In this document: positions 3,265 to 23,233 of the stretch, piece by piece
Layout of the letters: each line of letters starts with the position of its first letter
How positions within the stretch are numbered: the first letter of the stretch is position 1
NCBI RefSeq assembly: GCF_001729485.1
Contig: NZ_CP017157.1
Location: 6,882,001-6,946,000, forward strand
Source of the DNA: Streptomyces lydicus
GTDB lineage: Bacteria; Actinomycetota; Actinomycetes; Streptomycetales; Streptomycetaceae
Reading direction: 5' to 3'
Length of the DNA: 64,000 nt
The notes under the pieces: generated by a model
What the model was told of the DNA's origin: nothing
What the model saw: only the letters and a program-made list of their open reading frames with translations
Database searches by the model: none
Position numbers and translations under genes: made by a program

Positions 3265-3338
3265 TAGCGGGGACAGGATTTGAACCTGCGACCTCTGGGT
3301 TATGAGCCCAGCGAGCTACCGAGCTGCTCCACCCCGCG
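3265..3338 (-). tRNA. Initiator tRNA-fMet (CAT), copy 1
   Basis: Same 74-nt initiator tRNA as at 999-1072: anticodon CAT, GGG:CCC anticodon-stem pairs, C1 opposite U72, no encoded CCA. It is transcribed on the minus strand, upstream of the Sel1-repeat gene, and followed by its own terminator. Two initiator tRNA genes per chromosome are usual for streptomycetes; here they are 2.27 kb apart in direct orientation. Confidence 0.96.
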
Positions 3339-19749: not shown

Positions 19750-20067
19750 TTACTGCATCACGGCCATGGCCAGCGCACGGCGGGCCCGCAGCGAAGCGCG
19801 CTCGGCGCGCCGCTGCATCCGCCGCGCGGCGGCGAGCCGCTGCCCCCTGCGTTCGGACTCGGCCTCCCGCAGGCGTTCATGCATATGCGCACGCGCCAAG
19901 GCTTCTGGGATGAGTTGCATGGCGTGGTTCCTGTTCTGACGCGACTCGATCGCGTCGGCGTTCGCGGGGACGGGGGTGTCGGTGAAGAGGGAGTTCATCG
20001 TGGGGTCCTGCTTCTTGGGATCCCGTGTGACGGGACGGTCGATCGTTCCTGTGCCGGTGGTGTTCAT
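19750..20067 (-). CDS. Small basic protein translationally coupled to wblC, 105 aa
   Basis: ATG 20067 overlaps the wblC stop (ATGA), so its translation is coupled to WblC. The C-terminal half is a long, very basic amphipathic helix (RLAAARRMQRRAERASLRAR). There is no known domain. Two internal in-frame starts deserve attention: ATG 19998 (MNSLFTDTPVP) and ATG 19920 (MQLIPEALARAHMHERL). The latter has AGGAA about 7 nt upstream and would give a 56-residue product, so the shorter form may be the main one. Its Arg-rich nature suggests nucleic-acid or ribosome contact; this is inference. Confidence 0.7.
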   Translation of the reverse strand: MNTTGTGTIDRPVTRDPKKQDPTMNSLFTDTPVPANADAIESRQNRNHAMQLIPEALARAHMHERLREAESERRGQRLAAARRMQRRAERASLRARRALAMAVMQ

Positions 20068-20417
20068 GCCGCGACCGGGTTCTTGCGCGGACGGCCACGC
20101 GGGCGCTTCCGCGGCACCACGACGCCCTGGACGAAGAGCTCGCCACCCCAGACGCCCCACGGCTCACGGCGGTCCTTGGCGCCGGCGAGGCAAGCCTCAC
20201 GGACCGGACAGGTCTGGCACAGCGTCTTGGCGTACTCGACGTCGGCCGGGGACTCGGCGAAGAAGACCTCCGGGTCATAGGTGCGGCACGGAACCGCGGC
20301 GCCGAGGCGGTCGATCTCGTCGTCGAGCTCGGTGAGGGGCAGCAAGGAGTTCTCCTGGGGGTCGGGCGGAGGGATCAGGTCGGTCGCTACGGACGGGGTG
20401 TGCGTCTGCAGTTGCAC
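20064..20417 (-). CDS. wblC: WblC/WhiB7-type transcription regulator, 117 aa
   Basis: Iron-sulfur WhiB-like protein that acts with the primary sigma factor to switch on intrinsic antibiotic-resistance genes after ribosome inhibition. The four cluster cysteines are 44, 67, 70 and 76 (C-x22-C-x2-C-x5-C), followed by the GVWGG turn at 88-92. The AT-hook RGRPRK at 107-112 distinguishes WhiB7/WblC from other Wbl proteins. GTG 20417 has GAGGAA about 9 nt upstream. A leader ORF and an intrinsic terminator precede it (20467-20861). Its stop overlaps the next gene. Expression should depend on read-through of that terminator. Confidence 0.95.
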   Translation of the reverse strand: MQLQTHTPSVATDLIPPPDPQENSLLPLTELDDEIDRLGAAVPCRTYDPEVFFAESPADVEYAKTLCQTCPVREACLAGAKDRREPWGVWGGELFVQGVVVPRKRPRGRPRKNPVAA

Positions 20418-20466
20418 GGTGTGTGTTCCTCGTCTGTTTCGGCCCGCTGGTGGCGGACGGCTGGGG

Positions 20467-20508
20467 CAAACAAAAGGGCCGCGGATCCCGGTGTGGGTTC
20501 CGCGGCCC
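20467..20508 (-). promoter_or_regulatory. Intrinsic terminator in wblC leader (attenuator)
   Basis: On the minus strand, GGGCCGCGGAACCC and GGGATCCGCGGCCC form a 14-bp stem with one mismatch and an ACACC loop, followed at once by TTTTGTTT. This is a textbook Rho-independent terminator, but it lies inside the wblC transcript, between the leader ORF stop (20535) and the wblC start (20417). A second perfect hairpin, CCTGATC-loop-GATCAGG at 20522-20539, contains the leader ORF stop codon. The layout fits ribosome-controlled attenuation as described for whiB7/wblC leaders. Confidence 0.88.
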
Positions 20509-20534
20509 TGGAAGGTGCCGACCTGATCTGCCGA

Positions 20535-20861
20535 TCAGGCTGGATCTCTCCAGGGTTCGAGGCCGCGGTAGGCCCACATTGCATGCTGCGTCTGGTACTG
20601 CTCCCGGGATTCGGCACCGTTGGCCGCCGCGAAGGCAAAGGCATTCGCCTTGGCCGCCACTGCTACTGCCGCAGGTGCCTCGGTCGGTCGCGCGGTGCGC
20701 TCGCTGCGCGTCAGCACGGCGAGGGACTCGGGGCGCGCGACCTCGGTACCGGAGGGGCGGCCGAAGCCGGACAGACCGGTGCCCAGGAGCGAGGAGCCGA
20801 GAGTGCAGGTGGCGACGACCGACAGATCGGTCATTTTGTTGGTCTCGTTAATGCTGATCAC
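20535..20861 (-). CDS. wblC leader ORF (uORF), 108 codons
   Basis: GTG 20861 has GAGGAGG 8 nt upstream, one of the strongest ribosome sites in the window, so this frame is probably translated. It begins ISINETNKMTDLSVVATCTL with AT-rich codons, then continues with normal high-GC codons, and ends in the Trp/Arg-bearing AMWAYRGLEPWRDPA. The stop lies in a small hairpin just before the attenuator. The peptide has no domain or signal; its likely job is to couple ribosome movement to folding of the leader RNA so that stalling by translation inhibitors prevents termination before wblC. ATG 20834 is an alternative start. Confidence 0.75.
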   Translation of the reverse strand: MISINETNKMTDLSVVATCTLGSSLLGTGLSGFGRPSGTEVARPESLAVLTRSERTARPTEAPAAVAVAAKANAFAFAAANGAESREQYQTQHAMWAYRGLEPWRDPA

Positions 20862-20973
20862 TGGTCTCGCCTCCTCTCGGCGTCTCGGTGGACCGGGAAT
20901 CCCGTTCCAGGGTGTTCAAGTACAGCACGGATCGATCGGATCTCGGAAGGTTCCGTTGTCTCCGTGCTTCCGA

Positions 20974-21010
20974 AGGCTATGGGGATGCGCTCCGCGCGCG
21001 CAAACTATTT
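20974..21010 (-). promoter_or_regulatory. Predicted wblC promoter with AT-rich upstream element
   Basis: Minus strand: AAAAATAG (overlapping the uvrD2 stop codon), then -35 TTGCGC (21003-20998), an 18-bp spacer, and -10 TAGCCT (20979-20974, fitting TANNNT). An AT-rich patch just upstream of the -35 is the feature by which WhiB7/WblC with its AT-hook recognises target promoters, so autoregulation is likely. Predicted start near 20967, about 105 nt before the uORF. Confidence 0.55.
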
Positions 21011-23233
21011 TTCCGACGAGTTTTTCGCGGCGCCCCCGGACCCGTCCCCGGAGGCTTCCATGAGCTCCTCGCCGGCGCAGAGCGCCAGCACAGCACTGCC
21101 GTAGCGGTCGAACTTGCGCCGCCCCACACCTGAGATGACCGCAAGCTCCGCTTCGGTTCCCGGAACGGCCTCCGCGATCGCCATCAACGTCTTGTCGGTG
21201 AAGATGCAGTAGGCCGGCTGGCGCAGGCGCGCCGCCTGCCCGGCCCGCCACTCGCACAGCCGCTCGTACAGCGCCTCGTCCAGCTCGGACGGGCAGTCCT
21301 CACACCGCATCAGCTTCATCTCGCCGGCGTCCGTCAGCGTGCGGTTGCAGACCCGGCAGCGGGCCGGGCTGCGGTGCCGGGGCCGCCCGGCCGCCGCCGG
21401 AGCCCCGCTGCCGCGCTCGACGCCCCCGGAGACCGCGCCCGGCGTACGCCGCCCCGCACCGGTCCCTGAACCGGGCCGCAGGCCCCTCAGGAAGCGGCTG
21501 GCGCTGCGGGAGGCCCGTCCGCCGGGGGACCGCGCCAGCGACCACGAGAGCGCCAGATGCTGCCGGGCGCGGGTGACGCCGACATACAGCAGCCGGCGCT
21601 CCTCCTCGACCTGCTCCTCGGTCCGCGCGTAGGTGATCGGCATCATGCCTTCGGTGAGGCCCACCAGGAAGACGGCATCCCACTCCAGGCCCTTGGCGGC
21701 GTGCAGGGAGGCGAGCGTCACCCCCTCGACCGTCGGGGCGTGCTGGGCATGGGCACGCTCGTCCAGCTCCGCGACGAGATCGGCGAGCGACGCCGCGGGC
21801 CGGGCCCGCGCGAAGTCCTCCGCCAGCCGCACCAGGGCCGCCAGCGACTCCCAGCGGTCCCGCGCCGCCCCCGCACCGGCCGGCGGTTCACCCGTCCAGC
21901 CCATGTCGCTGAGCACCGCCCGCACCTCGGACGGCAGGTCCACCGCATCGTCCAGCAGCGTGTCGTTCGCCCCGAAGCGAGCCGCACCACGCAGCTTGAT
22001 GCCCGCCTCACGCACCTCGGGCCGCTCGAAGAACCGCTCCGCGCCCCGCAGCTGGTACGACACCCCGGCATCGGCCAGCGCCTGCTCGTAGACCTCGGAC
22101 TGGGCGTTGACGCGGAAGAGCACCGCGATCTCACTGGCCGGCACCCCCGACGCGATCAGGTCACGGATGCGGCGGGCGGTGCCCTCGGCCTCGGCCGGCC
22201 CGTCCGAGTACTCCGTGTACACCGGCTCCGGACCGGCCGCCCGCTGCGAGATCAGCTCCAGGCGGTGCTCCGCGGCGCGCCCCTTGGCCTGCGAGAGCAG
22301 CCCGTTGGCGAGGTGCACGACCTGTGGGGTGGAGCGGTAGTCGCGGACGAGTTTGACGACCGTCGCGTTCGGGTGGCGGGTGCGGAAATTGAGGAGGTGG
22401 TCGGGGGTGGCGCCGGTGAAGCTGTAGATCGTCTGGCTGGCGTCGCCCACCACGCACAGGTTGTCGCGGTCGCCGAGCCACAGCTCCAGCAGCCGCTGCT
22501 GCAGCGGGCTGACGTCCTGGTACTCGTCGACGACGAAGTGCTGATACTGGGCGCGGACCTGTTCGGCGATGTCGTGCCGGTCCTGCAGCACGCCCACGGT
22601 GAGCAGCAGCACGTCCTCGAAGTCGATCGTGCCGCGGTCACGCTTGAGCTGTTCGTACGTGCCGTAGATCTGCCCGATCTCCGCCGGATCACGAGGGGCC
22701 TCGCGGGCCGCCTTGACGACGGCCGCCGGATAGTCGGCCGGTACGGTCTGCGTCACCTTGGACCATTCGATCTCGGCGGTGACATCCCGCAGCTCGTTGC
22801 GGTCGAGCCGGATCCGGCAGCGGGCCGCCGCCTCCGACACGAGCTGGACCTTGCGCTCCAGCAGCCGCGGCACCTCCCCGCCGACGGCCTTCGGCCAGAA
22901 GAACTGCAGTTGCCGCAGCGCGGCGGAGTGGAACGTCCGCGCCTGGACCCCGCCGGCGCCGAGCTGCCGCAGCCGGCCCCGCATCTCGCCGGCCGCGCGG
23001 GCGGTGAAAGTGACAGCGAGCACACTCGCGGGCTGCAGAATGCCCGCCCGGACCCCGTACGCGATCCGGTGCGTGATCGCCCGCGTCTTGCCCGTACCGG
23101 CACCGGCCAGCACACACACCGGACCGTGCAGAGCCGTCGCGACCTCCCGCTGCTCGGGGTCGAGCCCGTCGAGCACCCCGTCGGCCGAGTCCGGCACCCG
23201 CGGGAAGAGAGAGGAGTCTGTTGCTGCTGTCAC
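21005..23233 (-). CDS. uvrD2: ATP-dependent DNA helicase UvrD2, 742 aa
   Basis: Superfamily 1A 3'-5' helicase. Walker A GAGTGKT is at residues 44-50, the DExx box is VVDEYQD, the SF1 motif is VVGDASQTIYSFTG, and motif V/VI contains TLASLHAAKGLEWD and YVGVTRARQHL. The C-terminal part carries a tetracysteine zinc site (CRVC and CEDC, about residues 612-635), then an HRDC domain ending SGVGRRKFDRYG. This architecture defines the actinobacterial UvrD2 class rather than UvrD1/PcrA. ATG 23233. It stops at TAG 21005, inside the predicted wblC promoter. It is upstream of wblC on the same strand, as in mycobacteria. Confidence 0.93.
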   Translation of the reverse strand: MTAATDSSLFPRVPDSADGVLDGLDPEQREVATALHGPVCVLAGAGTGKTRAITHRIAYGVRAGILQPASVLAVTFTARAAGEMRGRLRQLGAGGVQARTFHSAALRQLQFFWPKAVGGEVPRLLERKVQLVSEAAARCRIRLDRNELRDVTAEIEWSKVTQTVPADYPAAVVKAAREAPRDPAEIGQIYGTYEQLKRDRGTIDFEDVLLLTVGVLQDRHDIAEQVRAQYQHFVVDEYQDVSPLQQRLLELWLGDRDNLCVVGDASQTIYSFTGATPDHLLNFRTRHPNATVVKLVRDYRSTPQVVHLANGLLSQAKGRAAEHRLELISQRAAGPEPVYTEYSDGPAEAEGTARRIRDLIASGVPASEIAVLFRVNAQSEVYEQALADAGVSYQLRGAERFFERPEVREAGIKLRGAARFGANDTLLDDAVDLPSEVRAVLSDMGWTGEPPAGAGAARDRWESLAALVRLAEDFARARPAASLADLVAELDERAHAQHAPTVEGVTLASLHAAKGLEWDAVFLVGLTEGMMPITYARTEEQVEEERRLLYVGVTRARQHLALSWSLARSPGGRASRSASRFLRGLRPGSGTGAGRRTPGAVSGGVERGSGAPAAAGRPRHRSPARCRVCNRTLTDAGEMKLMRCEDCPSELDEALYERLCEWRAGQAARLRQPAYCIFTDKTLMAIAEAVPGTEAELAVISGVGRRKFDRYGSAVLALCAGEELMEASGDGSGGAAKNSSEK

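Follow-up and report, generated by a model that had tools for sequence, protein, structure and literature searches.

A uORF-controlled transcription attenuator in the wblC (whiB7) leader of Streptomyces lydicus and its conservation in the genus

The wblC Leader as an Attenuator

The leader of wblC (whiB7) in the 64,000-nucleotide stretch of Streptomyces lydicus DNA analysed here (the window) is best read as a transcription attenuator under the control of translation of an upstream ORF (uORF), a reading to which we give a probability of about 0.94. The leader has the anatomy of such a switch, is conserved with compensatory changes and folds into mutually exclusive structures; the strain would be expected to respond to drugs through a switch timed during transcription. 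Intrinsic antibiotic resistance in actinomycetes is set by wblC/whiB7, with the leader of the gene as the translation sensor.

In the proposed mechanism RNA polymerase would start near position 20967 and the ribosome would load at the strong Shine-Dalgarno (SD) sequence. A ribosome on approximately the last ten codons and the stop would cover the 5' arm of the antiterminator together with the 5' side of a hairpin holding the stop codon; with that arm covered the terminator would form and transcription would end about 50 nt before wblC. Stalling or failure further upstream, caused by translation inhibitors or by lack of charged tRNA, would leave codons 98-105 free to pair, around the stop hairpin, with the emerging 5' arm of the terminator. 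Once the antiterminator is formed the terminator would come too late and wblC would be transcribed. The long uORF would offer a broad, drug-unspecific target for stalling. That stalling alters RNA folding and permits read-through was the core of the original prediction, and it is supported by the conservation of the uORF frame, the stop hairpin, the antiterminator and the terminator.

Organization of the Locus

The features of the locus are listed in Table 1. The strong SD sequence and the 108-codon uORF that had been predicted are confirmed to the base, and the small hairpin at the uORF end and the intrinsic terminator (stem 20509-20475) with its T tract, 50 nt before the GTG of wblC, are found where they were expected. 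The module had been called complete: its uORF, hairpin and terminator stand, but the antiterminator, made of codons 98-105 and the terminator 5' arm, had gone unnamed. The likely WblC-type promoter and the unusually low GC3 of the uORF also lie beyond that first account.

Table 1. Features of the wblC leader and its surroundings (window positions).
Feature	Position	Strand	Basis or remark
UvrD-like helicase gene with HRDC domain	stop codon 21007-21005	minus	Pfam; upstream of the wblC leader
Candidate wblC promoter	20974..21012	minus	read from sequence; overlaps helicase stop codon
Shine-Dalgarno GAGGAGG of the uORF, 8 nt 5' of GTG	20870..20876	minus	sequence
uORF, 108 codons, GTG 20861, TGA 20537-20535	20535..20861	minus	ORF and conservation
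Element a, GGCACC, uORF codons 61-63, tentative helix with b	20674..20679	minus	
Tentative local hairpin of codons 70-76, enclosed by a and b	20635..20654	minus	
Element b, GGTGCC, codons 82-83; partner of a, alternatively of 20521-20514	20613..20618	minus	
Antiterminator 5' arm, CCGCGG 20568-20563 and CCCTGGA 20555-20549; codons 98-105	20549..20568	minus	folding, alignment
CTGGA-GAGA-TCCAG, possible small GNRA-loop hairpin	20540..20553	minus	by eye
Stop-codon hairpin CCTGATC-GGCA-GATCAGG, holds TGA, nested in antiterminator	20522..20539	minus	compensatory changes
TCCAGGGCCGCGG, antiterminator 3' arm, most of it shared with terminator 5' arm	20500..20512	minus	
Intrinsic terminator, stem 20509-20499 x 20485-20475, T tract 20475-20468	20468..20509	minus	
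wblC (whiB7 ortholog), 117 aa, GTG at 20417, tail RKRPRGRPRK	20064..20417	minus	

The wblC product matches Pfam PF02467 (Whib) with an E value of 9.3e-16, and its basic tail is recognized by eye. An Ala/Arg-rich ORF of 82 aa (19750-19998, minus strand, ATG at 19998) begins 65 nt after wblC; it has no Pfam or NCBIfam match and, from its position, could be co-transcribed with wblC. Rfam release 15, at its gathering score, gives no match to the leader; its sole matches in the window are two tRNA genes at 999-1072 and 3265-3338 (minus strand), with equal scores of 61.7 bits.

The candidate promoter is composed of AAAAAT (21012-21007), 3 nt, a -35-like TTGCGC (21003-20998), 18 nt and a -10-like TAGCCT (20979-20974). 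The blocks GGAAAAATAGTTTGC and ATAG are almost invariant in the 84-row Streptomyces alignment. Passages of PMC7157823 report the WblC site as GAAAWY, 3 nt upstream of the -35 element, and name an autoregulated wblC promoter together with uORF attenuation. Compared as sequences, AAAAAT agrees with this site at five of six bases, with the right spacing, and is conserved. AAAAAT/TTGCGC/TAGCCT is likely the WblC-type promoter of wblC, which would place the transcription start near 20967. It is the AT-rich AAAAAT of this promoter that overlaps the helicase stop codon. Some loci outside the family (L055, L057, L136) likewise have the helicase end before whiB7.

Conservation of the Leader

A WblC match at E 1e-30 or better occurs exactly once in each of the 81 genomes of the genus sample. 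The leader set comprised 84 loci besides the window, from the 80 other genomes of this sample and four further genomes of the genus. An automatic rule asking for AGGAGG before a start codon and an in-frame uORF in the same place recovers the uORF in 84 of the 85 Streptomyces loci, window included; the sole miss (L008) has a GGAGG site and, by eye, the same uORF end, and was left out of the 84-row counts below. By this rule the frame is kept in 84/85 loci, the end residues are conserved and the stop hairpin carries compensatory changes, which bears out the cross-Streptomyces alignment proposed with the original prediction. All 84 uORFs end in TGA; they start with GTG (74) or ATG (10) and are 88 to 124 codons long. 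Their commonest peptide ends fit MWAFRG[LP]EPW[SR]DP[AV]. Among the uORF relatives listed (80, named records), all are from Streptomyces.

Other genera of the family contributed 29 loci, six without a uORF by the rule and four more dropped as too divergent; the remaining 19 make up, with the 84 Streptomyces rows, a family set of 103 rows. Outside the family (42 loci) the automatic rule, which sometimes mispicks the ORF, finds an SD-led ORF in 37 loci and a terminator after the ORF in 30. The uORF C-termini there vary by lineage (WSPPV, WREPVIP, PRGNPPV and others). The motif CCTGGAG near the uORF end, complementary to a terminator side, is present in 8 of 30 loci, and an antiterminator reaches a shuffle p of 0.05 or less in 11 of 30 by the same rule, mispicked ORFs included; the antiterminator outside the family is, by this rule, unproven.

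With 29 Streptomyces leaders as training rows, a covariance model (R1) has matches (E 0.1 or better) in 69 of 98 genomes of the class. The comparison with WblC position covered 55 full-length matches and one partial match: 51/51 and then 4/4 full-length matches, as well as the partial one, adjoin WblC on the same strand, at distances from a 35-nt overlap with the WblC match to 285 nt upstream of it. R1 has no match in 29 of the 98 class genomes, including all five of one family (f3), and this counts against the attenuator reading. Within its own 8.2-Mb genome R1 has a single strong full-length match, this leader (E 2e-23). The next-best match (E 0.004) falls on the opposite strand of the same terminator, and this search gave no convincing further copy of the module.

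Mutually Exclusive Folds

The leader end (20600-20458, 143 nt) folds at -64.1 kcal/mol (z = -3.44), a value that 1 of 200 shuffles equals or betters. RNAalifold on the 84 rows (70 distinct) pairs codons 98-105 with the terminator 5' arm, the stop hairpin being nested inside; when the terminator 3' arm is added (76 distinct rows) the terminator forms instead. The terminator stem is kept in these 76 distinct rows with at most one mismatching row per pair. At full length the terminator fold is more stable than the antiterminator, so read-through must be kinetic.

The named antiterminator structure was evaluated on 29 rows chosen for diversity, with 500 shuffles and five measures. It is paired in 98.0% of 550 cells and five of its pairs have changed on both sides. 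None of the 500 shuffles reaches its values for percentage paired, pairs changed on both sides, cells changed on both sides or covariation; the fifth measure, a count of pair types, is unremarkable (88/500 shuffles). Sliding the antiterminator partner lowers pairing to 27-41%. The stop hairpin has compensatory changes in four of its eight pairs, which are four of the five compensated pairs in these rows. The antiterminator arms are near-invariant and have one compensated pair in one row (L005), in which a third change preserves the terminator too. Mean pair probabilities over the 103 rows are 0.89 for the stop-hairpin helix, 0.75 for the inner and 0.48 for the outer antiterminator helix, and 0.60 for the local hairpin of codons 70-76. 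An unrestricted covariation test of 65,341 column pairs (107 rows, tree-based null) gives no significant RNA pair, one stop-hairpin pair having an E value of about 490. Against the attenuator reading stand this null result, the scarcity of variation in the antiterminator arms, the unremarkable pair types and the greater full-length stability of the terminator fold.

Codon 105 is AGT in 66 of the 84 rows, AGA in 11, AGC in 5 and AAA in 2. With these codons the loop of CTGGA-GAGA-TCCAG is GNGA in most rows, and this possible hairpin might sequester part of the antiterminator arm.

Selection on the uORF

The pattern of substitution suggests that the uORF end is conserved mainly for RNA folding rather than for the encoded peptide. 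Over codons 98-108 in the 84 rows, the minority fraction averages 0.022 at the 17 positions paired in the antiterminator, 13 of them nearly invariant, compared with 0.116 at the 16 other positions, three of them nearly invariant. Residues vary at codons 98, 101, 102 and 105, where bases are unpaired. Silent sites, in contrast, hold constant, with CCC at codon 103 in 84/84 rows and CCA at codon 107 in 82/84, even though CCA serves for 2.7% of the prolines encoded by 37 genes of the window. Seven rows of the family set have Arg in place of Pro at codon 107 (CCA to CGA) and retain its third base. Between close species, compared in non-independent pairs, pN/pS is 0.83 for codons 2-55, 0.68 for codons 56-84, 2.0 for codons 85-95 and 0.20 for codons 96-108, and 0.15 for wblC. 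The pS of codons 96-108 is 0.051 versus 0.150 in wblC; synonymous variation over these last 13 codons is one third of that in the gene.

The same codons could be viewed as those of a regulatory arrest peptide, whose C-terminus MWAFRG-EPW-DPA would stall the ribosome in the exit tunnel on a ligand in an erm- or SecM-like manner. R99, P103 and W104 are each conserved in 84/84 rows, the low pN/pS of the segment would fit, and codon 97 (GCC 84/84) and mostly codon 100 (GGG 79/84) are fixed although their third bases are unpaired in the antiterminator. Synonymous variation in the segment is, however, also low, residue variation sits at unpaired bases, and the uORF peptide end is different in other families. 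Protein-level selection with free silent sites, as expected of an arrest peptide, is not found in this segment, the third bases of codons 97 and 100 being the exceptions; these may pair in other folds. The silent-site constraint and the variation at unpaired bases rule out an arrest peptide as the main reading, and we consider it very improbable. The C-terminus of the leader peptide had been proposed as worth comparing across species; it is indeed conserved, but its conservation looks imposed by the RNA more than by a nascent-chain signal.

A 108-residue small protein with its own function, the terminator being a mere brake between two genes, would account for an ORF of this length behind a very good ribosome site in 84/85 loci and for some well conserved N-terminal residues. 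It agrees poorly with the pN/pS of codons 2-55 and 56-84, far from that of wblC, with a product that has no Pfam or NCBIfam match and with the use of the uORF end by the antiterminator. The chance that this is the right explanation appears minute.

The median GC3 of the uORF is 0.75 versus 0.89 for wblC, and it is lower in all 84 rows. Rare A- or T-ending codons occupy fixed places in the 84 uORFs, for example AAA at codon 9, CGA at 58, GCA at 62, TAT at 75 and GGT at 82. Some of them are explained by the helices, but not CGA 58 (83/84). Pairing of CGA 58 with codons 14-16 or 28-30 can be seen by eye; it shows no covariation and was set aside. Synonymous recoding of the uORF with genome codon usage (43 of the 84 rows used) makes the antiterminator less probable in the model for early stalls: at 90 codons before the stop the value is 0.72 against a native 0.84, the native one being higher in 32 of 43 rows. 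Recoding barely matters at 40 codons (0.72 recoded, 0.74 native) and does not lower the value at 30 or 22 codons (0.92 and 0.97 recoded versus 0.89 and 0.98 native).

Stall Position and a Tentative Central Helix

Folding was modelled for ribosomes stalled along the uORF, each with an assumed footprint of 15 nt counted from the A-site codon. With the stall 100 or 60 codons short of the stop, 77 of 84 rows have a modelled antiterminator probability above 0.5; the count is 74 rows at 80 codons and 69 at 50. It dips to 52-57 rows at 35-45 codons, rises to 80-84 rows at 11-30 codons and falls to 0/84 at 10 codons or fewer. This last drop is largely geometric since covered bases are excluded from the fold. 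In the window this dip falls at 35 codons before the stop, with a modelled probability of 0.02. At least 7 of the 84 rows do not favour the antiterminator in the model for early stalls, which counts against the attenuator reading.

The attenuator might work as proposed and yet have its read-through tuned by a central helix a:b, which would hold b off the antiterminator and make stall position matter; we entertain this refinement with clear reservations. Codons 61-63 (GGCACY) and codons 82-83 (GGTGCC) are complementary, all six a:b pairs forming in 77 of 84 rows and five in the other seven. Pair 62.3-82.3 is A-T in 96 of the 103 family rows, G-C in six and unpaired in one. In the model, blocking a at a stall 60 codons before the stop lowers the mean antiterminator probability of the 84 rows from 0.86 to 0.74, and blocking a and b at 45 codons, where a is already covered, raises it from 0.63 to 0.87. 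These blocking effects indicate that a may shield the antiterminator from b. Against the central helix, its unrestricted covariation E value is about 120, non-significant, and it has about two joint changes only. Analysis of 78 of 80 named loci found the standard pair in 77, no pair in one and no compensatory change; these loci are a non-independent sample since at least nine of their genomes are already in the set. In the window itself a ribosome stalled 90 codons before the stop leaves a:b with a modelled probability of 0.07. At 60 codons the antiterminator probability there is 0.96 with all elements free, 0.87 with a blocked and 0.79 with both blocked, blocking b being of no help. Blocking element e at the same stall lowers the 84-row mean from 0.86 to 0.76, which speaks against b:e as a simple competitor.

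A same-branch count over the 103 rows considered the 35 pairs that are paired in at least 95% and have two joint changes or more; the central-helix pair and a stop-hairpin pair are both among the best three of these, but non-pairing column pairs give much smaller p values. Covariation support for the central helix is modest, since the unrestricted test is null and non-pairing columns reach these smaller values. A conserved third state, in which b (GGTGCCGR) would pair with YCGGCRCC on the far side of the stop hairpin, was considered and rejected, because the four rows in which b has changed (GGCGCC) are uncompensated. Eight pairs can form in 63 of 84 rows, seven in 18 and six in three, and in the model blocking this downstream partner of b helps some stalls and hurts others. 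We keep the pairing solely as a competitor within the folding model.

A tentative and somewhat doubtful picture is that of the uORF as a ruler for the RNA and not for a peptide. Most of its conserved codons, many rare A- or T-ending ones among them, would be kept for building the mutually exclusive folds, a:b would shield the antiterminator from a competitor within the uORF, and read-through would depend on stall position, being weaker at about 35-50 codons before the stop.

Comparison with Known Systems

If the uORF is conserved for the RNA and not for the peptide, the sensor would read the position of the ribosome along a long frame. A sensor of this kind, if it exists, would be consistent with induction by translation inhibitors of unrelated types as well as by amino-acid starvation. 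The stall map predicts which stall positions should or should not switch wblC on. More generally, a motif conserved in a leader peptide can be the footprint of RNA.

Control of this type had been described in the original prediction as already reported for whiB7/wblC, in agreement with passages of papers that cite Lee et al. 2022 for the same mechanism. That translation of a uORF attenuates wblC and/or whiB7 is reported in passages of PMC11550727, PMC12421871, PMC13393426 and PMC9618640; a terminator and an antiterminator are named in those of PMC11550727, PMC13393426 and PMC9618640, and amino-acid starvation in those of PMC11550727, PMC12421871 and PMC13393426. A mycobacterial uORF and terminator are found in passages of PMC13236596 and PMC4128351. 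Since uORF attenuation of wblC/whiB7 is published, the core of the present system is known. Among the titles listed in literature searches none concerned the central helix or a peptide end dictated by RNA, the text of Lee et al. 2022 aside, and we claim no priority. What is added here is the coordinates of the antiterminator, the compensated stop hairpin, a peptide end that seems largely an RNA footprint and a prediction on stall position.

The closest relative is the wblC/whiB7 attenuator of Lee, Lee and Roe (2022, Mol Microbiol 117:179), which, as its citing papers present it, shares with this leader the gene, the genus, the uORF, the terminator and the antiterminator. Its logic is also the same, translation of the uORF leading to the terminator and disturbed translation to read-through, and through those citing papers no difference in kind is found. 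The mycobacterial whiB7 leader (Dinan et al. 2014; passages of PMC4128351) likewise has an SD-led uORF and a stem-loop with a U-rich tail upstream of whiB7; it differs in detail, R1 matching none of the five genomes of family f3, which we assume to be mycobacterial. The are5sc and tiaA attenuators of S. coelicolor, as presented in passages of PMC12421871, are further cases of ribosome-mediated transcription attenuation of a Streptomyces resistance gene. They have very short uORFs (MLV, MVGDDDISG), on which one group of drugs stalls the ribosome at the start codon, in contrast to the 108 codons found here. The wblC leader of the window is a faithful copy of a known switch in a known place.
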